A DNA stretch of 37,651 nt from positions 1-37,651 of the IMG/VR virus record IMGVR_UViG_3300042691_023371; one strand, 5' to 3'. The DNA comes from a virus. Below the pieces are notes generated by a model. That model saw only the letters and a program-made list of their open reading frames with translations, did no database searches and had not been told where the DNA came from. The position numbers were made by a program, and so were the translations under genes. Below are positions 4,702-34,932 of this stretch, in pieces; within the stretch, counting starts at the first letter, position 1; every line of letters starts with the position of its first letter.

Positions 4702-4715
4702 AGAGATTCTCCTGA

Positions 4716-4728: not shown

Positions 4729-4750
4729 CAAATGGCCGATTTTCTGATCG

Positions 4751-8202: not shown

Positions 8203-8547
8203 CTAGCCCTTTACGGTGACGCGAACAACAGCCGTCTGGCCGGCAGTGTCGGAGACGGCAGAAATACCCATCGCACCGTACAACTCGCCGGGGATTTCGT
8301 AGCAACGTCCAGCCTGGATGACGGTCGTGATGGCGGCGTTGGCCGAGTCATACAGTTTGTAGGCCGGCGACGATGGCGAGAACTTGGCCCGCCAGGAGAC
8401 GGTCTGGGCGGCACCCGTTGAGGTGCTGACAACGTATAGCAAGCCGCCGGCGAACGCACCCAGGCCGTACTGGCCGGTGGTAGCCTCGTCGCTTGTAATA
8501 GTAGACTGATCGTAAAGGTCGAAGGTGCGGTCGATTGAGAGGCTCAT
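8203..8547 (-). CDS. Small beta-rich virion-type protein (114 aa)
   Basis: ATG at 8547 overlaps the stop of the 422-residue gene as ATGA, and the next gene begins 9 bp after its stop. The sequence is beta-strand rich and Thr/Ser/Ala/Gly rich (MSLSIDRTFDLYDQSTITSD; AFAGGLLYVVSTSTGAAQTV; VRVTVKG at the end). This composition is typical of small phage structural proteins such as decoration, stopper or fibre-base proteins. It directly precedes the LamG adhesin, so it may form the collar or attachment point of that fibre. No named family is recognised. Confidence 0.72.
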   Translation of the reverse strand: MSLSIDRTFDLYDQSTITSDEATTGQYGLGAFAGGLLYVVSTSTGAAQTVSWRAKFSPSSPAYKLYDSANAAITTVIQAGRCYEIPGELYGAMGISAVSDTAGQTAVVRVTVKG

Positions 8548-13992: not shown

Positions 13993-16900
13993 CAGCGACC
14001 CCCTTGACCTCAACGGCGTATAGCAGAGTCGCCGATGGCGTCGGGTCGCCATCGTTTGCCGGCACGGCGTCGCAGGCTAGTTCGATTGCGATGTGCTTGT
14101 CGGAAGATGCCATATCCGAAAGCGATCGGCCGGCGAACCTAGCGACGGCGAGGCCGGTCGCGAATCCGCCGGGCAACTGGGCGGAAGCCATATCGAGCGT
14201 CGTGCGTGCGCCTGGAGTCTTGTGGATAAATCCCGTACCCCTGTCTCGCTGCATCGCGTTGTTGCGAGCATTCGCGGAGTTGTTGAAATACTCGCGAAGC
14301 ACCAGGGTGGTGCTGGTTTCAGTGGGGCGGTAAGTCACGGTGACAGAGCGGTCAATCTGGGCGTCGCCGCCCCTAGTGTTGTCATCGACCAGCGGCATCG
14401 GCCCGGTGCGCATGTTCCACGGCACCGTCGTGCGAGCCAGGATCGGAAGTTCCGTATTGGCATCCACGCCTGTGCTTGGCGGCCTCGCGTATGCCGTTGC
14501 CGCCGCCCCAGCACCGCCGCCGCCAGTGATGGTCAGCCCGAATGCTTCGTTGAATGTGCCGTCATCGCTTGTCGTGCCGTAGTTCCATCCGCCTCGAAGG
14601 ATAATGACATCAACGAGTTTGCCGTCCTGCACCACCCCGCGAAACCGTGCGCCAGACCCACTGCCGCCAGAGGAAGCAGTGTTGGTCGCAATAGACGGCG
14701 GTGTCGTGTACCCGCTTCCTGGGTTCGTGATGGTGACGCTTGCGGCGTCGCGGTAAGCAACGTCGGTCAGCCCGCTGAACTGATACACGTTGCCATCAAA
14801 TGCACCGTAGATGGTTTCGGTGGTGCTTGTTGCCGGCGACTTGTAGTCGCAAGAACAAGTGAGGGAGTTGGGCCACGACTCTGTCCACCAAGCCTTGTTC
14901 GTGATGTGATAGCACAGTGTTACATTCGGGTAGCCAACTGCCGACCCGGTCATGGCGAAGAAACGCAAGATCGCGGTCTTCGGGTCGATGCGTAGGTGCA
15001 GCATATTCGGGTTGCCAAGCCATATCCTGCCTTCGTCAAACCAATCCCGCACTGGCTCGCTCAACGACTCGACATCGCCGTTCTTCGTCACCCGGTATAC
15101 GCCACGCTCGTCGGCGGCATAAATCTGATCGTCAAAAATATCCCAACACGATTGACTAAGGCACCCGCGGTGAGAAGCCAGCGTGACAACGGCATCCACC
15201 GATGGGTCGGTGTTGAAGTTGATGGTGTAGGAGTGTGCCGTCTGCATCGCGATCAGCACAGACCCGAATGGAATCAGTGCCGTGACATAATCGGTGGTAC
15301 GGAGATTCCCCTGGATGGGCAACTCGTTCGTGTCTGGGCAAGACTCGAACTCGTCATACTCTGAGAAGAAGACGGTGTTTTGGTCTTTGCCGCTTGTCGA
15401 AACGCCGTACCAGAGACGATCCTGCCAAGCCACCGCCACGGCCATATCGTTTCGAGCGGTTCCAAATCGGTAGGCATTGAGGCCGCCGTTCGGAAGCACC
15501 ACCGGCAACGATGCGTATGCGGGCCGGTCGGGGTCGAACAGTTCCTCGTCCGATATGCCGTCAGTGCCGTAAATCACGATCGAGCCGTTTTCGACGCGGC
15601 CGTACATATCGAGACGGTAGAAGACCAGAGACTGATCCGCTGACGTTCGGAAAAACTCCACGAACTGCGCTCGATCGGGTGGCGTCACTCCAGAGAGCGA
15701 CCAGACCAACTGGGATGCACGGCCGCTTCCGTTCGCGTCGGCATCAACGTCAACGATGGGAGAGAAGTCCGAGTAGGTGATTCGCTTCGTCATATCGCGA
15801 ACTCGAACCGGGCCAGTGCCGGTTTGGTTCGCCGGCGTCGCGAGCGTGACTTGGTTGCCGGATATGGAGACGATTTTGACAAGGTGGTCGATGGACGATT
15901 CGCCGAATCGAAGTTGATTTGCCAACGCCAGATTTGAAGCCGCAATCGCGGGATTGCCAGCCGAGATGGTGATGCTTGGCCCGAAGGTGAGGGAGGCAGC
16001 ATTCGCCACCGTGGCCTGCGCCGTGAGGGTTAGCGTGTTTGCGGCGATCGCCTGCACAATCGTGTTGTCGGGAATGCCGGTTCCTCGCACAGACATTCCA
16101 ACTTGAATGCCGGTGTTTGACGCGACCGTCAGGGTCGTGGTGTTGGTAGTGGCCGCCGCGGCCGTCGTTGTCGCTGGCTGAATAAGGCTGGCGACGAATC
16201 GGCCGCCGGCACCTAATGTTCCTGACGGGAAGTCGGTGATTGACGTTCCGACAGAGATGCCATCAAGCGTCGGCACGTTGATGAGCGTCTGGTTCGCGAG
16301 TGACGTTACGAACAGATTGAATGGGGCGTTGCCTCTCCAGGTCAACTGCATCCCAGGCTTAATCTTGGCAAGGTATGTCGCGGTGTTTGCCGAGTCCACG
16401 AACGAAAGCGTTGCGGTGGTCGAGCCTCGAACCGTCGTGATGTTGGCTGGAACGATCGCCGTTTCGCTGTAGTCCGCGAGCCGGTAGGCACACCTATATT
16501 TCCCGCGCATGGTGCCGCGGAGGATCGGCATCAACTTCGCCGGCTGAACGTCGGTGTAGAGAGACGTTGAGCCGCTGAAACCGTCGCCACCGTCGATGAT
16601 GGCGAGGCTCTTGATTTTGCCACCCTCTTGCGTGGACTGAACCTTCAACCCATATCCGCCACCACCGCGGAACAGGATCGTCGGTTCACGGTGGTAGTTC
16701 TGGCCGCCGCTAATAAGTTCGAGAGTGCCGATGGTTTTTTGCGGACTTGCCGGCACGATTACTTCGGTGGCGAAGTCGTAGCGTCGCTGATCGTTTGCAC
16801 CACTTGTCCAACTTGCCGGATTGGATGCGGCAGCCGAGACGCTTCTCGTCGGGAAATAGACTTGCGACATCTGGTTGGCAGCCGTCCACCCAGACCCAAA

Positions 16901-19075
16901 CACGGTTACGGTCGGCGGGCCGAAAATCGTGCCGGGAGTCAAGAAGGCGGCGGCACTACCAGCGGTGTCTGCGGCATTGGCTTGGAAGTAGAAATCGGTG
17001 TAGGTCGAGCCGAATGACGAGCGACGCGAGCCGCCGCCGTAGTTCCGGTATTTCTGCGACTCTGCCGGGCCTGACGCAGTCCATGCGGTCGATCGCCCGA
17101 TTTCCTCAATCTGGTAATCGTATGCGTTGTATTGCTCGAAGCGGATGGCGAACGCCGTGCCGGCCTCCATCTGCGAACCAGGGTTGACCATCTGGCACGT
17201 TAGGGAGGCGAGGTTAACAGTTGGGTCGAGAGGCGATGCTCGGAAGTCTGTGATTGGCCGCGGTGTCAAAAAGCCAACGGCGAATCCCTCCGCGTACCAC
17301 CGCGTATAGGTGTCCTGGTTATTGCTATGGAGCGACTCGAAGTTTCCGCTTGCGGTGGCGAGGCGGTCTTGCCCGCTATGGGGAGGCCACCTTTTGTTGT
17401 AGTCGTTCTGGTTAGATGCTGGTGCGGTGTTATTGACGAGCCAGGTGTCTGGGCAATAGGACAAATACACGCGGACGGTCGGAAACACCGTCTTGTTGGA
17501 CTGCGAATACGATGAGCCGTCATCCTTTTTCGTGGGACGAAGCGGAACGTCGATGTACGGGTACTTCACGTTGCTGACGGTGACGAACTGAACGGGAGAC
17601 GAGAATGTCTGCCAGTTCGCTTCATTCGCCATCGAGGCGGCATTGCATGGGCCGATCAGCATCTTGTAAGAGACGCTGGAGTAGTCGGGGAAGTAATACG
17701 CTCCCCAGTTCTGGATGGTCTTGTTGTTGCCCAGCCAATCGTCAGGCGTAATACCCTTGATCCTGACTTGGCTCTTTGCAAAACGCCATGTGTTGGGGCT
17801 GAATCCCAGACCCCAAAAAGCATCTTTATTCGCAGTACCCCAATAAGTAAACCGGCCGGCGATGCCATCATCCGCTGGCGATGCCGTGTTGGAGTAGTAC
17901 GATCCTGCCCCACCAGTACCGGAGGTATCCCAGTTCACCCGCTTCGACTGATAATAAGCCGCCGCCCCAGACAGGGTCGTTGACACACGGTTGTCGGGAG
18001 TCTGGAACGACGCCCAGGATGGATATGCGGCCCCCACCTTGTACGCCGACGAGGCCGCGGAAAACTCGATCTTGGCGTATGCGTCTTTCCCAGCGGCTGG
18101 AGCAACCGCCGTTAGCGGGACGAGGGCAGTGTATCTACCGGTGACTTCGTTGAAGGTAGTCAACGCCCTCTTAACGTCGCCACCAATAGCCTCACGGTAC
18201 GCAATGGTGACACTGCCGCTTGCCGACACGCCGTACTGGTGCGTTGTGGTGAGCGTGCCGTTAGTGATTGTCGCGCCAGACCCAGCGTTGTAGGTCGTGG
18301 GAGCGGTTGATTCCTTGTAGCCATAGACCGCAGGGTCAACCACAACCGTGCCGACGGCGAAGAAGCCCGTCCCGATTTGTTCGTTGCTGACCGTGAGGGT
18401 TGGCACCGATCGGAAGTTCGAGCCACCGTCAACAACGTCGATGGCGACGATCGCCCCGGCTTGCACCACTGCCCGCAGGGAAGCGTTGCGGTCGGGATTG
18501 CCATCGCTCACCGTGATGACCGGAGGGGTGTAGTAGGACGTTCCGCTGCTAAGAACGTCTACCCGCTCGATGAACCACCCGTCACCAACTGGAGACACAG
18601 ACGGTGCGACAGTCGGGGCCGGCATCCCGAAGTCAATCGACTTGTCGCTGATTTCGTAGCGGAACGTCTGCGGCGTGATGCCGCCGCCGAAGAAGGCGTA
18701 GATATGCCCAAACCGATCCTGGCAGATGGACGGGCGAGTCTCTTTCGTGCCTGCCGTCTTGAAAATCTCGCTGTTTGACCAGGACGAGCCGGAGTAGGTG
18801 AGGTGTTCGAGAGTCACATACTGATTCGTGGAAGCACCGTCGCCGAAGGTGAGGCGACACGAAATGAGGCGATCGTTGGCACTCTTGCCGTCCGTTGCCC
18901 GGTAGAGCGACAGCATCGCCCCGGCAGTGCCTTGGTAGACCAGGGACATTCCAGGCCGTGGGGTCAACTGCCCAGGCTTTCGCACCTGGAGGTTGTTCTG
19001 ATCGACGGCACCACCGGGAGGAACCGAATACGGCGAGGCTGCCGTGACTAAGCCAACCCACTTCTCAATGTTCAT
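13979..19075 (-). CDS. Tail nozzle (T7 gp12-like tail tubular protein B), unusually large, 1698 aa
   Basis: ATG at 19075 overlaps the stop of the adaptor gene (ATGA). The N-terminus (MNIEKWVGLVTAASPYSVPPGGAVDQNN) and the segment near residues 1205-1240 (AVAWQDRLWYGVST...VFFSEYDEFE), with DQIYAADERGVYRVTKNGDV downstream, have the look of the propeller blades of podovirus nozzle proteins. Nozzles of this family are about 800 residues, so this one is roughly double. The extra length includes Gly/Tyr/Pro repeats of the type SGxxYxxxPxxxxxGGG at about 178, 222, 795 and 1452, plus Thr/Ala-rich beta segments around 960-1060. Gene order (adaptor then nozzle, overlapping) supports the call. The inserts may decorate the outside of the short tail and carry host-contact functions. 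Homology is by pattern; a structural prediction would settle it. Confidence 0.78.
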   Translation of the reverse strand: MNIEKWVGLVTAASPYSVPPGGAVDQNNLQVRKPGQLTPRPGMSLVYQGTAGAMLSLYRATDGKSANDRLISCRLTFGDGASTNQYVTLEHLTYSGSSWSNSEIFKTAGTKETRPSICQDRFGHIYAFFGGGITPQTFRYEISDKSIDFGMPAPTVAPSVSPVGDGWFIERVDVLSSGTSYYTPPVITVSDGNPDRNASLRAVVQAGAIVAIDVVDGGSNFRSVPTLTVSNEQIGTGFFAVGTVVVDPAVYGYKESTAPTTYNAGSGATITNGTLTTTHQYGVSASGSVTIAYREAIGGDVKRALTTFNEVTGRYTALVPLTAVAPAAGKDAYAKIEFSAASSAYKVGAAYPSWASFQTPDNRVSTTLSGAAAYYQSKRVNWDTSGTGGAGSYYSNTASPADDGIAGRFTYWGTANKDAFWGLGFSPNTWRFAKSQVRIKGITPDDWLGNNKTIQNWGAYYFPDYSSVSYKMLIGPCNAASMANEANWQTFSSPVQFVTVSNVKYPYIDVPLRPTKKDDGSSYSQSNKTVFPTVRVYLSYCPDTWLVNNTAPASNQNDYNKRWPPHSGQDRLATASGNFESLHSNNQDTYTRWYAEGFAVGFLTPRPITDFRASPLDPTVNLASLTCQMVNPGSQMEAGTAFAIRFEQYNAYDYQIEEIGRSTAWTASGPAESQKYRNYGGGSRRSSFGSTYTDFYFQANAADTAGSAAAFLTPGTIFGPPTVTVFGSGWTAANQMSQVYFPTRSVSAAASNPASWTSGANDQRRYDFATEVIVPASPQKTIGTLELISGGQNYHREPTILFRGGGGYGLKVQSTQEGGKIKSLAIIDGGDGFSGSTSLYTDVQPAKLMPILRGTMRGKYRCAYRLADYSETAIVPANITTVRGSTTATLSFVDSANTATYLAKIKPGMQLTWRGNAPFNLFVTSLANQTLINVPTLDGISVGTSITDFPSGTLGAGGRFVASLIQPATTTAAAATTNTTTLTVASNTGIQVGMSVRGTGIPDNTIVQAIAANTLTLTAQATVANAASLTFGPSITISAGNPAIAASNLALANQLRFGESSIDHLVKIVSISGNQVTLATPANQTGTGPVRVRDMTKRITYSDFSPIVDVDADANGSGRASQLVWSLSGVTPPDRAQFVEFFRTSADQSLVFYRLDMYGRVENGSIVIYGTDGISDEELFDPDRPAYASLPVVLPNGGLNAYRFGTARNDMAVAVAWQDRLWYGVSTSGKDQNTVFFSEYDEFESCPDTNELPIQGNLRTTDYVTALIPFGSVLIAMQTAHSYTINFNTDPSVDAVVTLASHRGCLSQSCWDIFDDQIYAADERGVYRVTKNGDVESLSEPVRDWFDEGRIWLGNPNMLHLRIDPKTAILRFFAMTGSAVGYPNVTLCYHITNKAWWTESWPNSLTCSCDYKSPATSTTETIYGAFDGNVYQFSGLTDVAYRDAASVTITNPGSGYTTPPSIATNTASSGGSGSGARFRGVVQDGKLVDVIILRGGWNYGTTSDDGTFNEAFGLTITGGGGAGAAATAYARPPSTGVDANTELPILARTTVPWNMRTGPMPLVDDNTRGGDAQIDRSVTVTYRPTETSTTLVLREYFNNSANARNNAMQRDRGTGFIHKTPGARTTLDMASAQLPGGFATGLAVARFAGRSLSDMASSDKHIAIELACDAVPANDGDPTPSATLLYAVEVKGVADGSQ

Positions 19076-20214
19076 AGGGTGTCCGGTAGTTGTGCAGACT
19101 TCCAGCCCATAGAGCGGAAGGTCGGGAAGTCGAGATGCCGCGGGCGGCCAGACATTGGCGAGACAACGTCGGCTTCCATCGCCAATCGCAAATCACGGTT
19201 GAAGAGAGCGACGGCGTCCTTCGCACTGCGGCCGGCCAACCTGGCGTACCACATTTCCGCCGCGGACAGGATTGCCGTATACATCTGCGGCGAACAGTCG
19301 ATGAGGTCAGAAATGGCGTACTTGACGCCTGCCACTGTGGTGCCGGAGTCGGCAAGCGTCAGGGCGTTCGTGGCAGACCGGGCTGCGATGAGCCGCTCTT
19401 GCTGGTACGCCGTCAGCGATCCGAGGGGGTCGGCATCGGCGGTGGCTGACCCAAATCGAATCACGCTACCAACGCATTGAGTCGGGAAGTCGGTGCCTGT
19501 TCCTGTGACTGCGGTGCCGTTTACGGACACAGTCCCTTGGCGGCAAATCTGCTCATAGCCCATCAGCCGAATGTCTGACGGCCGATAGCGGTAGGTGTAG
19601 TGCAGCACCGTGCCACCGATCGGAACGCCAACGAATCGAATCTGGTAGCGATCTGGTGCAGTATCTGACCGCATTATGGTGTAGTAGTACGGCTCTCCCG
19701 CCCCCCGCGTGTTGATTTCCAGCCGCTGCCACTCCTGCGGCGACAGGAAGCAGTGCAGCGTGCCAACGACATTGCTGACCAGCGCGTCGATGTCCTTGAG
19801 TTCCAGCGGCAAATCGTAGAACGTCTGGCACCTGACCGTCACTGGCGTGGCTGCCGCCTTCGAGGTCGAGGCGGGGCGATCCACCGTGATGACGTTGCCG
19901 GCCTTCGAGACAACCCGAATAGCAAGGTCGAAGTAGCCGGGGTCAACGTAGACGAGCCGCCCAACCTCGAACCCCGTGGCGTTTGCAACCGTGATGGTGT
20001 ATTGCCCGGCGACAATCCCCGTTGAGGTAACGGTGGTTGTAACCTCGTTGGTCGTGATGCTTCCCGTCTTGGTGTGCCAGAGCCAATCGCGAACCTGGAG
20101 TACCTCGCGGACGCCGTGGAGGACGGCACCGCGGATGGCGTGATGCTCGCCGTCCTGCGCGCCGCCGCCCGTGGTGGTCAATAGGTGGTAAACAACGTCT
20201 TGGGCGCAGAACAT
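19072..20214 (-). CDS. Tail-tube adaptor (T7 gp11-like tail tubular protein A), 380 aa
   Basis: Starts at ATG 20214, directly at the stop of the upstream gene, and ends overlapping the nozzle ATG. The N-terminus is helical with a Trp-rich turn (VLQVRDWLWHTKTGS) typical of adaptor proteins, followed by beta-rich insertions (VTSTGIVAGQYTITVANATG; TVSVNGTAVTGTGTDFPTQC). It continues with FYDLPLELKDIDALV and YTYRYRPSDIRLMGY, and closes with helices (YTAILSAAEMWYARLAGRSA) that would pack on the portal. T7 gp11 is about 200 residues; this protein is longer because of a Thr/Gly-rich inserted beta domain around residues 45-125 and another near 225-300. It forms the ring between portal and nozzle. Identification rests on order and fold-like pattern. 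Confidence 0.75.
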   Translation of the reverse strand: MFCAQDVVYHLLTTTGGGAQDGEHHAIRGAVLHGVREVLQVRDWLWHTKTGSITTNEVTTTVTSTGIVAGQYTITVANATGFEVGRLVYVDPGYFDLAIRVVSKAGNVITVDRPASTSKAAATPVTVRCQTFYDLPLELKDIDALVSNVVGTLHCFLSPQEWQRLEINTRGAGEPYYYTIMRSDTAPDRYQIRFVGVPIGGTVLHYTYRYRPSDIRLMGYEQICRQGTVSVNGTAVTGTGTDFPTQCVGSVIRFGSATADADPLGSLTAYQQERLIAARSATNALTLADSGTTVAGVKYAISDLIDCSPQMYTAILSAAEMWYARLAGRSAKDAVALFNRDLRLAMEADVVSPMSGRPRHLDFPTFRSMGWKSAQLPDTL

Positions 20215-23001: not shown

Positions 23002-23275
23002 GCTTCGCTAGTTCTTGGAGTTGCTTCGTGATAGGGGCGTAATCCCAGCAACCAAACTCATGCCAGCCGGGGTTTTCGAGAAGGGCAGGATCGTCCTTGT
23101 GGTGGACGCTGGTTTTGTAAACGAACCCACCCAGCGAAAACGCGAGAAGGTTAATCGCAGACTCGCCACGATCGTCCTGCACCCACCCCAGCACCGGAGT
23201 GGAGAAGTTGCTGATATCGTGCGAGAAAAGTACCAAGTCGCCTGGGCGGGGTTTCGGCATTACAAAATCTGGCAT
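22967..23275 (-). CDS. Small SH3-like phage protein between terminase and portal (102 aa)
   Basis: ATG at 23275 overlaps the stop of the large terminase (TAATG). The sequence (PKPRPGDLVLFSHDISNFST; VLGWVQDDRGESAINLLAFS; VYKTSVHHKDDPALLENPGW; FGCWDYAP) matches a small family I know from many phages at exactly this place: R-P-G-D-x-V-L, then beta strands, then VxHxxDP and a G-x-W-D ending. Function is not established; an SH3-like barrel that assists portal or terminase assembly is a guess. The C-terminus (ELAKHGNQNAKPAGK) overlaps the portal start. Confidence 0.75.
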   Translation of the reverse strand: MPDFVMPKPRPGDLVLFSHDISNFSTPVLGWVQDDRGESAINLLAFSLGGFVYKTSVHHKDDPALLENPGWHEFGCWDYAPITKQLQELAKHGNQNAKPAGK

Positions 23276-24978
23276 TAGTTGATTCCTCCTTGTGGGCCTA
23301 GATTAACATAAGCCCGGCCATCCTCACCTAGTCGCTTTTTCCGTTTTTCCATCCATTTGATCCACCAAGGATCGACTTGGTCGCGGATGGGCGGCTTGTG
23401 ATAAGAGGGGCGGTATGCCGCGAGGTATTCGAGGCACTGGCAAGCATGGACTTCACCGCGGGTATTGGGCTTGTCGGTAACAACCGCCACGCCGCTGATG
23501 TAGTTGGTGATTTTGCGATACCGCTTGATTTCCCTCTCCAGGTCGGTCGCAGCCCCGCGGAGGATGCGGATCGTCGGCGTCCCGCTTGGGCGGATATGGA
23601 GAGCCGTCCTGGTGGCTTCACAGCGGGCGATGATGTCATCGCAGCCGGCCAGGAATGACGATCCAGTGACTTCGGATCGCACCTTCCACTTCGTCAGTTG
23701 CTCGGTGTATTGCTCCACTGGCAGCCGGCCGGAGCCGATGTCGCGGAGCCGGCCACCGTGGGCGTCGATCAAGAATGCGTAGAAGTGGTCATTGCCCACC
23801 TTCTTGGCGAACTGCTCGCCAAATATCACGGCGTTGGCTTGCCGCAGATATAGCGAGTCATAGACCAACCAGAAGTCGCCCTCTGGAGGAACAGCCAGGA
23901 AGAGGCAGGCCGTGACGGCGTGGCCTGGGTCGATGACGGCGTAGCGGCACCAATCGGGAGGAACCTGACCGCCCGGCAAATCGGCCCGGTCAAACCCGTG
24001 GATCGCCATATCGAAGTTGGGGTAGACCAGCACCGAATCCACGGTGAAGTCGCCCTCGCTCCGCATTCGCAATACATCGTCACCCGATGCCGCCCATCGA
24101 GCGATGGAGAGGGCCTTCTCTTCGGGATTCAGATAAGGGTTATCCAAAAAGCGCAGGCGGAACAGACGAATCGAAGACCTGTCACCTAGTTCCGCCTCGC
24201 AAGCATCAGCCCGTTCTTTCAGCGATAGTAAGGCATTGTTGGTCGAATGCGGCATAGCCGACCACCGAAAGCGGCCCCGGCGGTCAACGATTCTCGCTTG
24301 TAGTTCGCCGATCCAACGCTCATCCTCCAAGTCCTCGTCCACATGGGCGACGTTACATTGGTAGCCCTGGACAGGTTCTGATTCGGACGAGAAGAAATGT
24401 ATCTCCCACCCGTTGGTCAATGTAATCTTCTGGCAGTAGCCGGCACTCTTGAGTAGCCAACTGACTTTCTTGACGAACCGCGGCGGAATGAGCGGCGGGG
24501 CGGGGCGGGCATCCGCGAGGCGATCCTTGTCGAGAATAGGATCGAAGGCCCGCCACTCTTGCGTCTCGGCGTCCTTGATGATCTTGAACGCCCCTTCTTT
24601 CATCAGAAGCGGGTAGCAGACCAAACCTAGATGCTTCCAATCTTTTCCAACAATAACAAGGATGCCGTTTTCCTTGGGGTATTTGTTATATGGGTCTTGC
24701 CCAGTTACCGCCCTCGCATCCTCAACAAAAGTGCAGAGGCTCTTGCCAGACCGATTCCCACCGATGACCAGGACTTCACTCGCCGTGCAGGCGTGGAACG
24801 CTTCCTGGTTCGGGTTGGGCCGGTAGAGTTTCAGAGCCTCGACCTTCCGCTCCCGCAACTCGTTCTGGAGGGATTTCAGTTCCTCCCTCTGGAACTGGGT
24901 CAGTTGCGGGCTGCCCGCCGGAATCGGTATCACCGGCGGTTTCAAGCCGGGGTGCCTTCTTCTTGGCTTTTTTGCCAT
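23275..24978 (-). CDS. terL: Terminase large subunit (packaging ATPase/nuclease)
   Basis: The ATG at 24978 is fixed by a very strong GGGGGAGGTGG five bases upstream. Residues 73-80 are the Walker A loop GGNRSGKS. VAHVDEDLE at about 210-217 is Walker B (D214, E215). The nuclease half shows AVIDPGHAVTACLF (D350) and FLIDAHGGRLRDIGSG (D405), the usual acidic residues of the RNase-H-like domain. Length (567) is typical. The enzyme docks on the portal, pumps DNA into the prohead and cuts it. The N-terminus is basic (MAKKPRRRHPGLKPP). Its first 68 codons overlap the 3' end of the upstream gene in another frame; the conserved YRPNPNQEAFHA segment lies within the overlap, so the terminase frame there is genuine. 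Confidence 0.95.
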   Translation of the reverse strand: MAKKPRRRHPGLKPPVIPIPAGSPQLTQFQREELKSLQNELRERKVEALKLYRPNPNQEAFHACTASEVLVIGGNRSGKSLCTFVEDARAVTGQDPYNKYPKENGILVIVGKDWKHLGLVCYPLLMKEGAFKIIKDAETQEWRAFDPILDKDRLADARPAPPLIPPRFVKKVSWLLKSAGYCQKITLTNGWEIHFFSSESEPVQGYQCNVAHVDEDLEDERWIGELQARIVDRRGRFRWSAMPHSTNNALLSLKERADACEAELGDRSSIRLFRLRFLDNPYLNPEEKALSIARWAASGDDVLRMRSEGDFTVDSVLVYPNFDMAIHGFDRADLPGGQVPPDWCRYAVIDPGHAVTACLFLAVPPEGDFWLVYDSLYLRQANAVIFGEQFAKKVGNDHFYAFLIDAHGGRLRDIGSGRLPVEQYTEQLTKWKVRSEVTGSSFLAGCDDIIARCEATRTALHIRPSGTPTIRILRGAATDLEREIKRYRKITNYISGVAVVTDKPNTRGEVHACQCLEYLAAYRPSYHKPPIRDQVDPWWIKWMEKRKKRLGEDGRAYVNLGPQGGIN

Positions 24979-25480
24979 CCACCACCTCCCCCTGGACGAT
25001 TCTCACAGCCTGTTGGAATCGGGCTTGGAGTTCCGATTCCAGTTCATCGTCTGACCACAGCGTGAGCGGTTTCTTGACGCCGCCTTGATCGACGTTCTTG
25101 CTGACCAATCGGCAAATAGTCTCCAGTAGTCGGCTTCGCGTCGATGAGCCGGGTGGCGAATCGTAATACTGTTTGACAAGCATCGCCGAGAAGCCGCCGA
25201 CGCCCCCGAAATACTCAACGACCCGCTCGATAACCTCGGCCGAATGCGGGATATTCGAGCCGCCAGCCTGGATTTGCGAAAGCCAGTAATCCACCCCCGA
25301 CGCTTCGACTTGCCGGAGGGATTCCTGCCTTTTCCGTTTGGCCCGCTTTCGCCGGAGCCGCTTCCGCTTTTCGTGGCACCCCCGACAAACCATTGACAAA
25401 GAGCCGCCCACCATTGGGTAATGCCCTTTGTCCAACGGCCAAGCCGTTCCGCAGTTTTTACATACGCGCCCATCAGCCAT
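24776..25480 (-). CDS. Zinc-ribbon protein, candidate terminase small subunit (234 aa)
   Basis: ATG at 25480 (MADGRVCKNCGTAWPLDKGH). The first 36 residues carry two C-x2-C pairs (C7/C10 and C32/C35), then a strongly basic helix (EKRKRLRRKRAKRKRQESLR) suited to DNA binding. Residues about 60-165 are helical (EVIERVVEYFGGVGGFSAML; SRLLETICRLVSKNVDQGG). Position immediately before terL suggests the small subunit that recognises pac/cos DNA, but I see no direct family match. The last 67 residues are Gly/Pro/Glu-rich (ETAGDTDSGGQPATDPVPEG) and overlap the start of terL by 203 bp. No Shine-Dalgarno is visible; instead a stable hairpin ends 9 bases before the ATG. Confidence 0.65.
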   Translation of the reverse strand: MADGRVCKNCGTAWPLDKGHYPMVGGSLSMVCRGCHEKRKRLRRKRAKRKRQESLRQVEASGVDYWLSQIQAGGSNIPHSAEVIERVVEYFGGVGGFSAMLVKQYYDSPPGSSTRSRLLETICRLVSKNVDQGGVKKPLTLWSDDELESELQARFQQAVRIVQGEVVDGKKAKKKAPRLETAGDTDSGGQPATDPVPEGGTEIPPERVAGAEGRGSETLPAQPEPGSVPRLHGE

Positions 25481-26428: not shown

Positions 26429-27559
26429 TCAGACGGCCTTGACCAACTTAAAAAAGTTTCGCGGCGAACGGCAGCGGAGGTTTGCTAATACTGAACAGGC
26501 GTACCGGTAACTGGAAAGTTCCTCGTCGTAGAAGGGGCCTTCCCCCACAAGGAGGGTGTTCTCAAGCGACCGGAGTTCCATGTTGCCGATCGACAGGCCG
26601 TAGCCGGAGTCAGCCGGGCAGGCGTACTCAGAAGTCACAGTAACGCCGTCCTGCATCACGGAGTCCGTGAAGCCGACTTCCGCCAACTTGTTACTCTCGA
26701 CGTTGATCCGCTCCTTGCCATCGAGCGTGGCGAGGTACTGGATATACAACTTGCGGTCGAGGATGACGAGGTCGATAGCCGCCTCGCGAGTATCGTTGCG
26801 GCGAGCGTGGTGCAAGCCGAGACGAATCGCCTCGACGCAGTTCTGCCGCCACGACTGCGTGTTGTTCTGCGAGAAGCCGCTACTATTCCAGTTGACAATC
26901 ACAGGACTAAAAAAGTCGAACTCAGGGTCTACCGGGGTTTCCGGCCATTGGCCGGTAGTGCCAAGCCGACCGCCGCCGTAAGCACCGAGTTGCGTCGAGA
27001 GGCCGGCGTAGTTGTCAGTGGGGTAGCAGAAGCGGTCGGCTGCGTTGGCGGTGCGCTTCGTGGCGACGCCGGCTACAGACGAGTCGATAGTACCGTCGTA
27101 CCCGAGAAAACTCTCAAGTCCATGCCAGTTATTCTCCTGGCCGGTGGCACTACCATCCGCGTAGACCTGATAGCCCAGGTGCTGTTCGAGCGACTCTTGG
27201 AGACGAGCGGCCATCGAGCCGGCAACATTAACAAGTGCCTGCTGACCGCGGTTCTCCAAAAGTTCGCGCCTAAAAATCGAATCTTGGGTCGTAAAGCCTT
27301 TATATGGCAGTTCGAGCCGCTTCCAGAGCGACTGACGGCTGAACACTCGCGGTGTATCACCTGACGAACCCTGCACGCTCGCGTTTTTGTACCGGATATT
27401 CCAGTCGAAACCGCGCCCGCTCTGGTTCATTAGTACGTTGCCAGCCTTCTCCAGCATGGCGTACACTTTGAACTTACGAAAAGTTGACAGTTCCTCTTCC
27501 CTCAAATGCTGGACGATAGTAGTGCCGATAACTCTCGCCCAATCGGATACCGACGCCAT
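26429..27559 (-). CDS. Major capsid protein (376 aa)
   Basis: ATG at 27559 with AAGGA nine bases upstream. The product begins MASVSDWARVIGTTIVQHLR and has the general HK97-type coat layout: N-terminal helix, an extended loop (RYKNASVQGSSGDTPRVFSR), a long spine helix (QQALVNVAGSMAARLQESLE), peripheral beta sheet (VILDRKLYIQYLATLDGKER) and a C-terminal A-domain-like end (ENTLLVGEGPFYDEELSSYR). It lacks a prohead protease region, and no protease gene is seen nearby; instead it follows a separate scaffold gene. Size and position between scaffold and decoration gene support the assignment. Call made on order plus pattern; structural search should confirm. Confidence 0.83.
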   Translation of the reverse strand: MASVSDWARVIGTTIVQHLREEELSTFRKFKVYAMLEKAGNVLMNQSGRGFDWNIRYKNASVQGSSGDTPRVFSRQSLWKRLELPYKGFTTQDSIFRRELLENRGQQALVNVAGSMAARLQESLEQHLGYQVYADGSATGQENNWHGLESFLGYDGTIDSSVAGVATKRTANAADRFCYPTDNYAGLSTQLGAYGGGRLGTTGQWPETPVDPEFDFFSPVIVNWNSSGFSQNNTQSWRQNCVEAIRLGLHHARRNDTREAAIDLVILDRKLYIQYLATLDGKERINVESNKLAEVGFTDSVMQDGVTVTSEYACPADSGYGLSIGNMELRSLENTLLVGEGPFYDEELSSYRYACSVLANLRCRSPRNFFKLVKAV

Positions 27560-27580: not shown

Positions 27581-28642
27581 TTAGTTAACCGGGGTTGTCA
27601 AGCCCTGGCTCTGGGCTTGCATCTGCAACTTTTCGGCGAATGTCATGTTAGGGGGCGGAACGCGAGGATCGGCAGTACCAGGAGAACTTCTTGCTGGAGT
27701 CCGCATCGCCTGTTGGCGAAGGTATTCCATGTTCTGCTTGGCCTGTGCGTCACCTTGAGGTTGCTGTTGCGGTGCCGGCATTTGCTGGGGCATCCCGCTG
27801 GCGTTCGTTGTCTGATAGTAAGCGAGAAGTAAATCCCGCTCGACCATCGACCTTGCGAACTCCCAACGAGACTCAGCACCTTGAATGCCGTGTCGCTTGG
27901 CGTCCTCGACATATTTCTGGGCGAGAAGTGCCTCTCGGGAGGCACGACCACTTTCATCAAGTAGCCAATCTTTGTTCTCTGACTCGATGCGAGAGACGAA
28001 TGCTTCCTCGTCCCGGCGGGCCATAGTCCGCTGGAGCAACTCTTGGGCGCGCTGCTCGGCGACCTTTGCCACCATCGGGGCGAGGGTTTCTTCGGGGTTT
28101 TCCAAGAACTTGCGGGCGAAGTCGGCCCGATAGGCTTGGTACTCAGCCAATGCGTGCTTGGCATCGAGCGGAGCATTAGGGTCGATCGCGTCCCGGCCGT
28201 TCTCGTCCTTGACGAGATACTGCTTGTAAGCATCTCGAATCTTGGGCGGGTTCCACCAGGAATGTTCCTCTGGCTTGGCGGCCGGCTGGGGGGCGGGGGC
28301 GGCCTGGGCCTGACCGGCGGCCTGTTGCTGTTGCCAGCGGTCGAACATCTCTCGCTTGGAGAGGTATTCCGAGACTTGAGGAACAAGCCCCTGGAACTGG
28401 CTTACCTGTTGCTGGAGAGCCTGCCGGTGCTGGAGTGCTTGGTAGATCGAGGACGCGACTTCCTCGTCACTTCGCCCCTGCAATCCAGGGATTTGCTTGA
28501 AAGTGTCCCACGGCGAAGTGGCCGCTGGGGCTTCTGGAGCCGGTGTTACTGCCGACTCGGGAGACTCAACCTCGGGAGACTCCAGTTCGCCACTGATTTC
28601 AGTCTCATCAACCGGAACATCAACCGCTTCTTCTGGTGGCAT
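27581..28642 (-). CDS. Scaffolding protein (353 aa)
   Basis: ATG at 28642 with AGAGGGA as ribosome binding site. The N-terminus is acidic and Pro/Glu-rich (VDVPVDETEISGELESPEVE), followed by a long Gln/Ala-rich coiled-coil (QALQHRQALQQQVSQFQGLV; FDRWQQQQAAGQAQAAPAPQ) and charged helices (AKVAEQRAQELLQRTMARRD). It ends with a Gln/Pro/Met-rich stretch (QQMPAPQQQPQGDAQAKQNM) and a short C-terminal helix (FAEKLQMQAQSQGL). This is the standard composition of podovirus scaffolds, which guide coat assembly through a C-terminal helix and leave the head. Position directly upstream of the major capsid gene, 21 bp apart, is decisive. Confidence 0.85.
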   Translation of the reverse strand: MPPEEAVDVPVDETEISGELESPEVESPESAVTPAPEAPAATSPWDTFKQIPGLQGRSDEEVASSIYQALQHRQALQQQVSQFQGLVPQVSEYLSKREMFDRWQQQQAAGQAQAAPAPQPAAKPEEHSWWNPPKIRDAYKQYLVKDENGRDAIDPNAPLDAKHALAEYQAYRADFARKFLENPEETLAPMVAKVAEQRAQELLQRTMARRDEEAFVSRIESENKDWLLDESGRASREALLAQKYVEDAKRHGIQGAESRWEFARSMVERDLLLAYYQTTNASGMPQQMPAPQQQPQGDAQAKQNMEYLRQQAMRTPARSSPGTADPRVPPPNMTFAEKLQMQAQSQGLTTPVN

Positions 28643-28653
28643 CAGTCCCTCTA

Positions 28654-31332
28654 CTATTGGGCCATTGGCGAAGTGTAACGCTGGGCCGGGGCCATCCTGG
28701 CCGGTGGTAAGCCGTACATTGTTGTACCGGCTTCTAATATCCGCCGCAACCTATCATCGCGCTTCTGATAGGCACTGGGCTTATACATCTCATAGTTCGG
28801 ATCATCGGCACGCACCGGATTGCCCCCGAAATCAGTTACCAGGGGATGGTATTCCGGCGGTGTAAACAGGCCGGGGTGCTGGTCTGGGAGGTTTACTTGC
28901 ATGATCGCGGCATTCTGCGGCGTTTCCCCCACGGTATTGGTGCCGATCCTGCCGCCGCCGCGGGCCAATGACTTGGCAACCTTGGCCGCACCGCGGGCCA
29001 TCGACTTCTCGTTGATAAGCGAACCGATAAGGGAGCCGCCGCCAGTAACGCCAGCCAGACCCAACTCGGCAATACCCTGCATATCCGCGAGGTCGCGGGG
29101 ATAGTTCGCTACCATTTCGCCAAACGGCGAGAGGTAGGTCGGCTTTACCGGGGTCATGGGCTTGTCTGGCATTACTGTCTTGCCAGTGAAATCATGCGTC
29201 GCCCCACCGAAAGCCTCGGGTGACATTGCGTATTTCTTGACGAAACTCGGGTACTCGACGCTGGAATACTGCCGTGCCTCGGTATCCAAGTCCTTTAGTT
29301 CGCGAATGATTCCGCGAACTTCCTTGGGGTCAGCCCCTGCCGGATACCGGGGGGTGGTGCGATAGAAATCGTCACGCATCCGGTCGAGCGTTGCCCGGTT
29401 GGCCTCGGGCATATCCAGGTTGTAGAGATACCGCTCGGATAGTTGCTGGTTGTAACGCGGCAGGAAGTTGTCCGCGTTGGTCATCTTCGTGGTTACGCCC
29501 TCAAAGGTGGTCGAGGACAGGCTCGGGTACTTCGCCCCACCCAGGCTATCGCCGGCAGTGCCATCGGGCTGGCCGGTGTACCACCACTGGAGTGCCTCGT
29601 TCATCCGCCCCTGCGGCGTGTTGAACCGACTCGCGGCAAGGTTGTAGGTCTGGGCCGCCCCTCGCGTGTCGCCAACCATATCGAGGGCGAGGCCACCCAC
29701 TGCCGCCAGAGCCTTGCCGGAGTTATTGGCACCAACGGGGCGGTGCGTTCCGTTCTGGAAAGTGGAAAGTAGGTTGTAGACCCGCTCGCTCTGGTAACCC
29801 TGTTCGCCCTGCGGCGTCAGTCGATACCGCGATTCAGCCGGCCCAACCTTGTCGAACTCGGCCGCCTGCTCCGGCGTGGCCCCGGCGTCGAACTCGGTAT
29901 CCGTTGCCCCAGGCTCATAGCGGCCGGGGAGGTTGCTTCGCATCTGGTTGAGGAACCCGTCGCGAAGGGCGATGGCGGTCTTGTCGCTCTCGTCGAATGG
30001 CATCCCCTTGATCGAGGCCAGAGCGTTGTTGACAGACGCCTCGGAGACGATTCCGCTTTTCTTGGCTAACTCGAAATACTGCGCCGGGCTGATGGTGCGA
30101 ACTGCCCCACCGTCATCCTTGATCCGCACCACCGGCATCTGCATCGCTTCATCAACAACGGCATTGAAGTGCCGCATCTCCCGCGTTGGATTCGCCTGGA
30201 AGGCAGCCATATCCTCGGGGGTCAGGTCATCAGAGAACCGGTTGCCGACATACTTCGCGGCACCAGACGCCTTACCCTGGAGGTAATCGCCGGCCTGCCC
30301 AAGCATTCCGAAGAAGGAGTTGTCTTGTTCGCCCTGGCTGGCTGGGGCAGGGGGCGGGGCAGGGGGTGTCGAGAACTTGCTCAACCGATCGCCATAGCGG
30401 TCATCGGCGGAAGCCACACTGCCGCCAAGCCCCATCGCAGCAAGGATGGACGCGATCCGCTTGATGTTGACCGCGTTTTCGTCAAAGACCTTGTATTCGC
30501 GGGTGCCGCCAGTTGGGGCCGGGACGTTGACGCCCTTCTCGGGAATCGTCCCTTCGTACAGTTGGTTTTCGATTTCCTGCGCTCGGAGGATATCGCCATC
30601 TGCCCTCGCCGCCGCCGCCTCGTCTTCCAGCATCTTCATCGGCGACTTGCCGAGAGACTGCGGGCCGTAGCCAGCCCCCGCCCCCCAGCCAGTACCCATC
30701 CGCGATGCCGCCGGGATTCGGGCGTCCTCGACCAACCGGTCTACGATGATCGGCGACAGTTCGTTGCGGAGTGCATCCGCGGCAGGATCGCCGGAGGCGG
30801 CCCACTCCGCGATATTCCTCATCGAGTTTGGGCCTTCGAGCGACGGGTCAACCGTCGGATCAAGGTCGGAGAGTTTGGTGCCGCCAAACCCGCCGTGCAT
30901 CCGCATCGCGTCGAGCCAGAGCAACTCCTGGGTGGACATCGGCTCCCCAGTTATGCCAAGCACATCGACTGGCAAAATGCCGCGGCGTATCCCGATTCTG
31001 TCCAGAGCGTCTTGCACCGCTCGCGTCTGGGAGTTGATCGGAACGTCCAGGTTCAGAATCATCCCAGGATCGCCAACGAACTCTGCCGAATAGTGGCGAA
31101 GGCCAGAGGCGTTCTTGCCTAGCGGCGGGGCGGCCAGCCCCTGGCGAAACAGAACGTCAGGGGCAACGCCGTATTTCTCAACCCAGCGAGCGAGTTGCTC
31201 GTTGCTATGAAAGTCGATGCCCGGCACCGGGTAGTCGTTGACATACACATCGTCGCCGCCAAACTTCTCCACGACGTTGGGCGAATGCTGGTAGAGCATC
31301 TTCGCCGGCGGCTTCTTGCGTCCCTTTGCCAT
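28654..31332 (-). CDS. Polyvalent virion-type protein with divergent N-terminal ADP-ribosyltransferase-like domain (892 aa)
   Basis: ATG at 31332 with TAGGA eight bases upstream. After the basic tag MAKGRKKPPA come features that line up with the ADP-ribosyltransferase domain of phage polyvalent proteins (ART-PolyVal): MLYQHSPNVVEKF (12-24; His in place of H-G-S-P-H), DFHSNEQLARWV (40-51), PGMILNLDVPINSQTRAVQD (89-108; compare the 'YEVDIPD...' segment) and REYKVFDENAVNIKRI (278-293; compare 'NYVVFD...I.I'). The G-x-G-x-Y loop is not clear, so activity is uncertain. Residues 310-892 are low-complexity and helical, with a Gly/Ala hydrophobic patch near 765-785 (GLAGVTGGGSLIGSLINEKS). It lies between another ART-like gene and the scaffold gene. 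Likely a virion-carried effector or structural polyvalent protein; the ART assignment is moderate. Confidence 0.6.
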   Translation of the reverse strand: MAKGRKKPPAKMLYQHSPNVVEKFGGDDVYVNDYPVPGIDFHSNEQLARWVEKYGVAPDVLFRQGLAAPPLGKNASGLRHYSAEFVGDPGMILNLDVPINSQTRAVQDALDRIGIRRGILPVDVLGITGEPMSTQELLWLDAMRMHGGFGGTKLSDLDPTVDPSLEGPNSMRNIAEWAASGDPAADALRNELSPIIVDRLVEDARIPAASRMGTGWGAGAGYGPQSLGKSPMKMLEDEAAAARADGDILRAQEIENQLYEGTIPEKGVNVPAPTGGTREYKVFDENAVNIKRIASILAAMGLGGSVASADDRYGDRLSKFSTPPAPPPAPASQGEQDNSFFGMLGQAGDYLQGKASGAAKYVGNRFSDDLTPEDMAAFQANPTREMRHFNAVVDEAMQMPVVRIKDDGGAVRTISPAQYFELAKKSGIVSEASVNNALASIKGMPFDESDKTAIALRDGFLNQMRSNLPGRYEPGATDTEFDAGATPEQAAEFDKVGPAESRYRLTPQGEQGYQSERVYNLLSTFQNGTHRPVGANNSGKALAAVGGLALDMVGDTRGAAQTYNLAASRFNTPQGRMNEALQWWYTGQPDGTAGDSLGGAKYPSLSSTTFEGVTTKMTNADNFLPRYNQQLSERYLYNLDMPEANRATLDRMRDDFYRTTPRYPAGADPKEVRGIIRELKDLDTEARQYSSVEYPSFVKKYAMSPEAFGGATHDFTGKTVMPDKPMTPVKPTYLSPFGEMVANYPRDLADMQGIAELGLAGVTGGGSLIGSLINEKSMARGAAKVAKSLARGGGRIGTNTVGETPQNAAIMQVNLPDQHPGLFTPPEYHPLVTDFGGNPVRADDPNYEMYKPSAYQKRDDRLRRILEAGTTMYGLPPARMAPAQRYTSPMAQ

Positions 31333-31341
31333 GATTTGTTC

Positions 31342-32556
31342 CTACTGGAGTAGCGAGCCGGCAAGCGGACTCTGCACTGGTGTTTGTTGCTCCTTGGCAC
31401 CATCGGCAAGCAGTGCCGGAGCCAGAAGGGAGTAGGGGTAACGCTTGACCAGTTCCATGATGGACGGGTCATAGACAACGAAGTTTTCGGTGCGGCTCGG
31501 AGAGTTGTCAGGCCGGCTGCGACTGAATGCGTCTGGGTATCTGATTCCTGGGATGCCGCGATCAACCAGGGCAGACTCAAACTCGCCAAGATTCGGATGG
31601 GCAGATGAATCTCGATACCGACTAGGAATCCGCCTGCCGTCAATCAGTTGGCCGGCATTTGGCGGTCGATAGTCTTTCAGCGCGTCATAGAGGTCTGCCG
31701 GCGTATTCCGACCGCCAAGCCACGGCTCTCCGTCGCCGTACACCGTGTCATTCGCCTCTCGGGCAACGTCCATGAGGGCGTCGCGGAGCCAGCCGCGTTG
31801 TTCGCGAATGGGCCGCATGTACTCGACAAAGTTCTCTCGCGGAGAATGGAGATTGAAGTGGTAGGTGAATGCCGGGTCGGACTCCGGCTTCACTCCGGCC
31901 ATTGGCGGCTCTGGCTTCCCGTAGAACGACCGATGATCGTCATAGTGCGGATGCAGGAACGCGAACGACGAAGCCCACTCATCCTTGTTGAAATACGGCA
32001 GGTTGTTGTCTTGCAACTGGAAGAACGAGAGTTGGTTCTGCAACGACCGGCTCGACTGCGGGAGCATTTCGTACATGCGCTCGTAGTACGGAATACTTGC
32101 CTTCCAGGCGTCGCTGTTCCTATATGCCTCTGCCGTGAGGTTGTCTAAGGTCTGCCCGAAGTTTCCGCTGGCGTAGTTGTCGTTGAGAATCTTCTGCCGC
32201 AACTCCCCCAACTCGCGACGCTGCTCTGGGGAAAGACTGAGATGGTCGAGGCTGCCGAAACTCTCGCTGTATGGCTTCCGCATTCGCGACTGCCAATCAG
32301 TCCAGTTGTCATGCTTCCAGGCGCGGCGACGCCATTCGTCAATCGCCGGATTCTGTCGCTCCAGTTTCCGCGTAAACTCGTCGTGGTAGTTCTGGCCGAC
32401 GGCTGGGCTTTCGTAGTTGTAGAGGCCGCCGGTGTAGGAGTTGGCACCCTGGCCCGTCCGCAAGTAATCCAGCGACGGGGCATCAAACTTGTGGGGAGAC
32501 TCATGCCCCACAATCACCATGCCACCCTGGAGCGGGCCGCGGCGTGACTTCGCCAT
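31342..32556 (-). CDS. ADP-ribosyltransferase-like protein (ART-PolyVal type), 404 aa
   Basis: ATG at 32556 overlaps the upstream stop (TGATG); a GTG one codon earlier is also possible. After the basic tag MAKSRRGPLQGG comes VGHESPHKFDAPSLDYLRTG (16-35) and GANSYTGGLYNYES (37-50), matching the 'YHGSPHxFxxF...IGTGEGAQAYGxGLYFAE' core of ART domains in phage polyvalent proteins. The C-terminal part has ALVDRGIPGIRYPDAFSRSR (329-348) and ENFVVYDPSIMELVKRYP (357-374), matching the closing 'GIPGIRYLD...NYVVFD' of the family. Between them lie about 270 residues, far more than the compact domain, largely helical and aromatic. ART domains transfer ADP-ribose from NAD+ to host targets. A target is not inferable. 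It may be injected with the DNA. Domain call is strong; activity is unproven. Confidence 0.78.
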   Translation of the reverse strand: MAKSRRGPLQGGMVIVGHESPHKFDAPSLDYLRTGQGANSYTGGLYNYESPAVGQNYHDEFTRKLERQNPAIDEWRRRAWKHDNWTDWQSRMRKPYSESFGSLDHLSLSPEQRRELGELRQKILNDNYASGNFGQTLDNLTAEAYRNSDAWKASIPYYERMYEMLPQSSRSLQNQLSFFQLQDNNLPYFNKDEWASSFAFLHPHYDDHRSFYGKPEPPMAGVKPESDPAFTYHFNLHSPRENFVEYMRPIREQRGWLRDALMDVAREANDTVYGDGEPWLGGRNTPADLYDALKDYRPPNAGQLIDGRRIPSRYRDSSAHPNLGEFESALVDRGIPGIRYPDAFSRSRPDNSPSRTENFVVYDPSIMELVKRYPYSLLAPALLADGAKEQQTPVQSPLAGSLLQ

Positions 32557-32894
32557 CACGCCCCCCTGGCTTGCTCGAAGAACTCACTTCGCCAGCGGAT
32601 CGCCAAGTCCTGGTGGTAGTGCTTCTGAATCCACCACTGGACGAACATTCGCACCAACTCACCAATGAGCGGGGCGAGAATGAGAAGCAGGATCGAGCCG
32701 TATTCCTGCTTGGCCTTCTCTTTGACGTTAGCGCAAATCGTCTCGAACGAGTCCCCAGGCTGGAACTCTTGCACGACCATCTCGGCTAGTTTCCGGCAGC
32801 GACGCCTTCCAGCCAGATACTTCTTCTTGGGAAGCCCGGCGTAGAACTCGCTTTCGAGTTTCGCGAAAGCCGAAAGATCGTCAGCACGGCCCAT
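32556..32894 (-). CDS. Small membrane protein with one transmembrane segment (112 aa)
   Basis: The likely start is ATG 32894 (MGRADDLSAFAKLESEFYAG), inside the end of the Lys-rich peptide gene; the longer frame back to 33005 is an off-frame reading of that peptide gene. A basic stretch (LPKKKYLAGRRRCRKLAEMV) is followed by a hydrophobic segment at about residues 72-92 (SILLLILAPLIGELVRMFVQ) and a Trp/His/Arg-rich end. One membrane span and a size of about 110 residues would suit a holin or an envelope-interacting accessory protein, but it is encoded with head genes, not beside an endolysin, and no lysis enzyme was found in the window. The stop overlaps the ATG of the ART-like gene. Confidence 0.65.
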   Translation of the reverse strand: MGRADDLSAFAKLESEFYAGLPKKKYLAGRRRCRKLAEMVVQEFQPGDSFETICANVKEKAKQEYGSILLLILAPLIGELVRMFVQWWIQKHYHQDLAIRWRSEFFEQARGA

Positions 32895-34374: not shown

Positions 34375-34661
34375 GCCCCATTTGGAAAACGGGGAAAATA
34401 TCGGGAGCGGGACGTAACAAGTCATGGGCTGGGCCGGGGGGGCCGCGGGGCCGCGACGCAACCCCTTTGCTGCCAACGACTTACGGCAACCCCGGCGGAA
34501 CGCTGACGGCTCCGGCCCCCGTTTCCCGCGGCCGATCGAGTGCCGTTGCCCGGTTCCTGGTCGCCTTCCCCCCGTGCGCGCCGCGGCCCCGCGCGCCCGC
34601 TGCGCGCGCCCCGCCTGGCCTTCGGCCAGCGGTGCGCGCGCCCGCGTAAACCCCCTCGGCG
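34375..34661. other. Non-coding GC-rich spacer with imperfect hairpins
   Basis: No gene can be supported: frames are open only because stop codons are rare in such GC-rich DNA. It contains an inverted repeat centred on CTGGCC-ttc-GGCCAG (34615-34629), extended outward by GCGCGC arms (about 34600-34641), giving a very stable stem. The remainder shows nothing I can interpret. Confidence 0.5.
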
Positions 34662-34932
34662 GCCCCGGCCCCGGCCCCCGGCCGTCGCCCTGGCCGTCGC
34701 CCTGGCCGGCGGCCCCGGCCCCGGCCCTGGCCGTCGCCCTGGCCGTCGCCCTGGCCGGCGGCCCCGGCCCCGGCCCCGGCCGTCGCCCTGGCCGTCGCCC
34801 TGGCCGGCGGCCCCGGCCCCGGCACCGGCCGTCGCCCTGGCCGTCGCCCTGGCCGTCGCCCTGGCCGGCGGCCCCGGCGGCCCGCCCTGGCCGTCGCCCT
34901 GGCCGGCGGCCCCGGCCCCGGCCCCGGCCCCT
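34662..34932. repeat. Higher-order GC-rich tandem array (49-bp units built from 12-bp and 25-bp blocks)
   Basis: The array is made of a 12-bp block GGCCGTCGCCCT and a 25-bp block GGCCGGCGG followed by CCCCGG-type filler. Pairs of the 12-bp block plus one 25-bp block form a 49-bp unit beginning at 34680, 34729 and 34778. A fourth copy (34827) has three 12-bp blocks and a variant long block, and a last partial copy runs 34889-34932. Because 49 is not a multiple of three, the reading frame rotates from unit to unit, so the long open frames across it are not proteins. Confidence 0.85.

Follow-up and report, generated by a model that had tools for sequence, protein, structure and literature searches.

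Results

Two ART-Related Proteins in the Head Block

The DNA analysed here, called the window, is the IMG/VR virus record IMGVR_UViG_3300042691_023371 (37,651 bases), and all of the genes treated in its head block lie on the minus strand. In gene direction, the order is a small gene, an open reading frame (ORF) encoding 404 residues (31342–32556), an ORF encoding 892 residues (28654–31332), a putative scaffold gene, and the gene for the major capsid protein. Computational analysis found ADP-ribosyltransferase (ART) homology in both ORF products, with the active-site residues in place in the 404-residue protein and substituted in the 892-residue protein, which is a fusion. The analysis also located the site at which ART-derived sequence is inserted and, in relatives, a slot of variable content ahead of the scaffold gene. 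A previous interpretation made from the sequence alone (the sequence-only reading) had described two ART-like proteins in front of the scaffold and capsid genes; the two ORFs, their motifs, and their place in the head block were as it had described, and the motifs stand above chance in the shuffle controls given below.

The 404-residue protein contains the stretches VGHESPHKFD (from residue 16), GGLY (43), GIPGIRYPD (334), and NFVVYD (358). A profile of 79 ARTs, from which the window proteins were left out, scored this protein at 90.1 bits, compared to a best score of 7.4 bits among the 760 that were scored out of 1000 shuffled sequences. It was also recognised at E 1.7e-17 by a 16-member ART model, built only from relatives of the window phage, and the hhalign probability relative to the ART family was 99.3%. 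In a tblastn search of cultured phages, both ends of the protein matched gene 5 of Sulfitobacter phage phiGT1 (E 9e-3), and pairwise alignment of the two proteins gave E values of 3e-10 and 1e-8 for the two ends. The phiGT1 gene 5 product is ART-PolyVal by Pfam at E 1e-6, slightly below the curated cut-off. A peptide-pattern scan of IMG/VR with the 404-residue protein yielded no relatives, and the protein did not reach the gathering threshold of Pfam model PF18760 (31.2 bits; no hit at E 1). Because clear relatives also fall short of this threshold (30.0 bits for P0001 and 27.0 bits for L041), we read the PF18760 miss as a detection limit.

The active site of the ART-PolyVal/HYD2 clade consists of a His on strand 1, a Tyr on strand 2, and an Asp on strand 5 (PMC5512222). 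Residues H18, Y46, and D342 of the 404-residue protein occupy these H-Y-D columns, and each is in or beside a predicted strand of the AlphaFold model; Q253 and N358 are also present. In alignment A6, a hand-picked set of 57 of 67 non-redundant ART domains, the H, Y, D, and N columns of the 404-residue protein are invariant in the other rows (57/57), and in the 79-member set the same residues occur in 79 (H), 77 (Y), 74 (D), and 79 (N) members. Judged by sequence, the protein belongs to the phage ART-PolyVal/HYD2 clade, in which it is divergent. It is an ART whose middle is enlarged, as had been proposed, and its intact-looking active site predicts an enzyme catalysing the transfer of ADP-ribose.

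The AlphaFold model of the 404-residue protein had a mean predicted local distance difference test score (pLDDT) of 68.1, with values of 78 to 95 in the core-strand blocks, and the long middle, inserted between the regions of strands 2 and 3, was modelled as helices, largely at low confidence. The first row in Foldseek was chain B of 9k3a, the cyanophage A4 pre-ejectosome (E 0.023, probability 0.98), and the same chain was the top row in VIA (Z 12.3, root-mean-square deviation 4.8, 176 residues aligned). The next VIA rows were 6fkg_A (MbcT, Z 8.4), 1dtp (the diphtheria toxin catalytic domain, 7.0), 8qnl_C (NatRT, 6.4), two of tankyrase 2 (6.2 and 5.9), and the anti-CRISPR protein 6kyf (5.9). 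All of these first seven rows are ART-fold entries (Z 5.9 to 12.3), which points to an ART fold as far as the model goes; we take MbcT, NatT, and 6kyf to be ART folds, and the ART identity of 9k3a_B was read from its sequence. Sequence searches of PDB chains with an ART profile and two ART proteins gave either nothing or matches judged to be due to chance, the best of which (E 0.0065) was a designed helical repeat protein.

The N-terminal part of the 892-residue protein (residues 1–325, 30358–31332) contains YQHSPNVVEKF (from residue 14), LNLDVPINSQ (93), and REYKVFDENAVNI (278). The 79-member model scored it at 20.1 bits (single-test E 2.7e-8), and this match consists of two colinear stretches, residues 79–126 (the LNLDVPINSQ region) and 274–309 (the TREYKVFDENAVNI region). 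With the same model, the rest of the 892-residue protein scored −1.5 bits, the best other window protein 4.7, and the best of 2101 shuffled sequences scored out of 4000 reached 4.1. Among 2416 ORFs scored in relatives, 16 ARTs had at least 135.8 bits and the best other ORF 6.2. An hhalign comparison of the N-terminus with A6, after removal of the 404-residue protein, gave 94.1% (E 1.3e-7), whereas the highest value was 2.4% among 25 other window proteins (a 1698-residue protein being left out) and 15.7% among 60 shuffles. The AlphaFold model (pLDDT 67.3) has the same strand order as the model of the 404-residue protein, and 13 BFVD matches at E 0.001 or better included one named ART-PolyVal-like. 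These structure matches are partly circular, because the model was built on an ART alignment.

At the H, Y, and D columns of the family, the 892-residue protein has Q15, D40, and a Gly (no Asp), and a Glu occupies the column that holds Asn in all 79 family members; it retains the Gln of the INSQ stretch. The N-terminus (approximately residues 1–325) is a very diverged ART homologue, which we term ART-derived rather than an ART because the H-Y-D residues are absent, and it has likely lost the usual ART activity.

The Fusion and the Insertion Site

The C-terminal part of the 892-residue protein (residues 346–892, 28654–30297) is conserved. Residues 346–874 are about 50% identical to a protein of about 556 residues whose gene, in the nearest relatives, immediately precedes the scaffold gene. 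Of 11 loci having 74 to 78% capsid identity (L006–L016), seven show a whole 556-residue gene immediately preceded by a homologue of the small gene, two show the 556-residue gene in part, and two begin too late. An eighth case of this arrangement is L134, a contig of a metagenome-assembled genome (MAG) in which the 556-residue homologue is divided over two overlapping frames (3849–5520). Profile A6 found no ART in these eight records of nearest relatives; several are short fragments, and the longest of the virus records has 43,432 bases. Since the small gene and the 556-residue gene are adjacent in these relatives and no ART was found there, the window phage has, relative to them, extra ART-derived sequence between the two genes, consisting of the whole 404-residue gene and about the first 340 codons of the 892-residue gene. 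The base composition of the inserted block shows no contrast with the window (GC content 0.587 and 0.625, relative to 0.601).

The small gene (32556–32894) probably starts at the ATG at 32894 and stops at 32556, and its open frame extends to 33005; the comparisons used the piece 32556–32882, which starts four codons inside the gene. Its TGA overlaps the ATG of the 404-residue ORF (TGATG), and only nine bases separate the stop of that ORF from the start of the 892-residue ORF, so that the block looks like one operon. The putative scaffold gene (27581–28642), which no profile matched, was assigned by synteny and position, and the major capsid protein (26429–27559) by PHROG 9953 (E 3e-11) and 43 relatives.

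The 892-residue protein had no credible match in Pfam or PHROG (best PHROG E 0.12) and no Pfam hit at E 1, MuF and portal families included. Peptide-pattern scans of IMG/VR with the whole protein and with its N-terminus found no relatives, and tblastn searches of cultured phages with either gave only E 2 or worse. Polyvalent proteins are defined by at least two recognised effector domains within a single polypeptide; the 404-residue protein looks single-domain, and the second part of the 892-residue protein is without a credible Pfam or PHROG match but may hold an unrecognised domain. A link between the 556-residue family and the window gene at 19072–20214, raised by a weak hidden Markov model score (E 0.059), was dropped when profile comparison gave a probability of 0.2%.

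A Variable Slot before the Scaffold Gene

The gene content ahead of the scaffold gene was compared in a sister clade of 26 loci with 55 to 57% capsid identity (L018–L043). In five of these (L021, L022, L032, L033, and L037), the slot is out of view because the locus begins too near the scaffold or capsid gene. It was found that 16 of the 21 visible loci have an ART before the scaffold gene, with another gene between in L040, and that L023, L028, L034, L039, and L043 have no whole ART. In four of these five (not L034), the slot holds an endonuclease VII family protein, the family being named from L023, and L038 has both an ART and such a protein. L020 duplicates L019, and L030 is a near duplicate of L029. 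In L044 and L048, which are more distant, the slot is without an ART. Near the endonuclease VII family gene of L039, a fragment at 2587–2664 matches the tail alone of the ART, as if an ART had been replaced. In the window itself, an HNH/endonuclease VII-like gene lies between the capsid and terminase-like genes (24776–25480); its product is related to the slot endonuclease family (E 6.4e-07) and has weak PHROG matches.

Residue states were counted in 15 of the 16 slot ARTs, L027 being cut before the first two residues. H, Y, and D are all present in 9 of 15, and one is missing in the other six: the Asp in L018, L024, L031, L038, and L040, and the Tyr in L035. Among the 14 distinct slot ARTs, mean pairwise identity was highest in the tail (0.71), lower at the N-end (0.56), and lowest in the core (0.33), so that their ends are more alike than their core; for 64 other family members, the tail, N-end, and core values were 0.51, 0.65, and 0.33. 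A wider scan of IMG/VR found 295 ART relatives, of which the best 80 were kept. One contig of 117,778 bases, IMGVR_UViG_3300049595_001870 (L020, L053, and L070), has the ART loci L053 and L070 about 57 kb apart.

Host and Other Features of the Window

A single scan of genomes, made with the capsid alignment, yielded two relatives, both in Planctomycetia MAGs: L134 with 78% capsid identity, and L135, in a Pirellulaceae MAG, with 55% and an ART before the scaffold gene. A planctomycete is therefore the likely host of the window phage, although errors in MAG binning are possible. A single search of open-licence papers gave none devoted by title to planctomycete phages.

Five minus-strand proteins of the window begin with MAK and a basic, proline-containing N-terminus: the 404- and 892-residue proteins (starts at 32556 and 31332) and those encoded at 23275–24978, 9817–11508, and 8544–9812 (starts at 24978, 11508, and 9812). 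The similar basic tags that had been noted on the two ART-related proteins are thus real but not specific to ARTs, and the idea of an ART-specific packaging signal was dropped because of the three other proteins; the start may be a shared tag or a habit of initiation regions in this phage.

Upstream of the head block, a GC-rich tandem repeat occupies 34657–34931 (period 49, 5.5 copies), and the repetitive long ORFs that span it are mechanical. A 1052-residue protein (5035–8193) has a Laminin_G_3 (concanavalin-like) domain (E 4.3e-9) and matches a virion structural PHROG (E 6.4e-25). The 1698-residue protein (13979–19075), encoded after the portal gene and two further genes, has short repeated matches to several virion PHROGs; in the first 900 residues, its identity to the best relatives is about 31 to 32%, compared to 60 to 80% for the portal and the two preceding gene products.

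Discussion

We propose that the window phage carries an ART-derived insertion whose products are packaged with the head, that the intact ART acts in the host, and that the degenerate domain is a non-catalytic module, and we put the probability of this reading at roughly 0.55. The 404- and 892-residue proteins would be made late, together with the scaffold and capsid proteins, would enter the head during assembly, and would exit with the DNA. The intact 404-residue ART would then move ADP-ribose from nicotinamide adenine dinucleotide (NAD) onto a host macromolecule. The degenerate domain would serve the 556-residue protein for docking to the head, as a partner of the 404-residue ART, or for binding a ligand such as NAD; ART domains may require a partner, as reported for PARP15 (PMC12572374). 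The proposal of two effectors that both modify host proteins was overstated, because the second domain lacks the active-site residues.

We infer head packaging and injection from gene position and from the solved cyanophage pre-ejectosome, which contains a similar domain. Phage ARTs encoded close to head genes are widely interpreted as cargo of the head. The phiGT1 ART is at the same place, ahead of the scaffold and capsid genes, and about 44% of phage ARTs are in contexts that suggest head packaging (PMC9503650). The phiGT1 position and the A4 pre-ejectosome match therefore give support to, but do not demonstrate, a head location of the 404-residue ART.

Several results weigh against this proposal. 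The 404-residue protein had no match at E 1 among the Pfam, PHROG, or NCBIfam models, and its structure model had no PDB match at E 0.001 in Foldseek and only two VIA rows of at least Z 8, below which VIA warns of common arrangements and a Z value by itself is weak. The 16-member ART model was non-significant for the 892-residue N-terminus (E 8.0), and a six-frame scan of the window with A6 at E 0.01 found the 404-residue ART and not this N-terminus. The Foldseek search of the N-terminal model in PDB listed no ART, and although VIA rows 1 to 16 were all ParT, Xre-RES, or tankyrases, their Z values were just 4.3 to 6.0, from a model built on an ART alignment that included the 404-residue protein. 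The mean pLDDT of both models was near 68. The sequence-only reading is partly supported: the 404-residue protein is an ART, the 892-residue protein carries an ART-derived domain in its N-terminal third, and both are encoded in the head block.

A real rival, possible but in our view doubtful, is that the ARTs are not packaged and are morons at an insertion-tolerant spot, expressed late in the infected cell against the host or competing phages, in the manner of T4 ModA and ModB, which act after entry. The variable slot speaks for this, with ARTs in 16 of 21 loci, endonuclease VII family proteins in four of the other five, and one ART tail fragment; an endonuclease VII would seem no obvious head cargo. 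However, the ART-like domain of the solved A4 pre-ejectosome sits inside the virion, and the ART-derived domain of the window phage is fused to a protein that is conserved at the pre-scaffold position.

It is also conceivable, but unlikely, that the altered domain of the 892-residue protein retains enzymatic activity through a modified active site, with Q, D, and E for H, Y, and N. This would fit the Glu in the otherwise invariant Asn column, which presumably matches the catalytic Glu of PARP1 (NEYIVYD), and the retained INSQ Gln. However, all three of the clade H-Y-D residues are substituted, and PARPs in which the His is changed to Gln, PARP9 among them, are inactive or nearly so on their own. 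Least probable is that the 892-residue N-terminus is not ART-derived and its two short matches arose by chance or convergence, as could be argued from the YQHSP and GIDF stretches, which contribute no score, and from the failures of the 16-member model and the A6 scan, but which is countered by the right order of two colinear matches, the shuffle and proteome controls, and a strand order like that of the 404-residue model.

As an extension of the packaged-insertion proposal, the pre-scaffold slot might be a dedicated cargo bay in which fast-changing ARTs, each having conserved ends around a variable core, are swapped. In the window phage, an enzyme would be carried together with a pseudoenzyme hard-wired to the conserved pre-scaffold protein, the altered one docking, activating, or acting as a decoy for the active one. 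We consider this tentative idea less likely than not.

Head-located phage ARTs are predicted to be common. To our knowledge, firm links of such ARTs to the virion are few, T4 Alt being foremost. The syntenic slot provides many natural ART variants (intact, damaged, replaced, and fused) with which packaging and targets could be addressed, and the fusion of a degenerate ART to a conserved protein at the pre-scaffold position would offer a natural handle for packaging. The lineage points to an NAD-based conflict of phages with planctomycetes.

Comparison with Known Systems

This kind of phage ART has already been described in two surveys (PMC5512222, PMC9503650). Among the open-licence papers searched, none was seen to report the planctomycete slot or the joining of a degenerate ART to a pre-scaffold protein, and both the variable slot and the pseudo-ART fusion look new.

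The closest kind is the ART-PolyVal/Tox-ART-HYD2 domain of phage polyvalent proteins (PMC5512222), which is alike in its homologous domain, its H-Y-D site, and its surroundings of virion genes. In contrast, the 404-residue protein looks single-domain, has a long helical insertion, and was missed by every library scanned. The 892-residue copy is without the active-site residues and is joined to a protein in which no known domain was recognised.

In phiGT1, the ART-PolyVal gene is gene 5 (QLB38217.1), which is followed directly by a small gene, the scaffold gene, and the capsid gene; both ends of its product align with the 404-residue protein. However, phiGT1 has one ART, in which the His and the last-motif Asn are about 216 residues apart, compared to 340 in the 404-residue protein. 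The window capsid protein had no match in cultured phages at E 0.001. Virion proteomics of phiGT1 has been published (PMC10386132), in which the text and legends are silent on gene 5.

The ART-like domain of the cyanophage A4 pre-ejectosome (9k3a chain B, Z 12.3), with its YHGT and GSGTYFS stretches, is physically in the virion, and Pfam and the ART model did not detect it. Unlike the 404-residue protein, it is part of a 1717-residue internal protein, which, from its length and numbering, we infer to be the product of A-4L gene 27.

The fusions of ARTs to MuF or portal proteins (PMC9503650) likewise join an ART to a head-associated protein, whereas in the window phage Pfam gives no MuF or portal match for the fusion partner, and the ART domain joined to it is degenerate. 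T4 Alt, which had been suggested as the model, belongs to the R-S-E clade, as opposed to the H-Y-D ARTs described here (PMC5512222), and the likeness is in how the two would work, as ARTs predicted to ride in the phage head.

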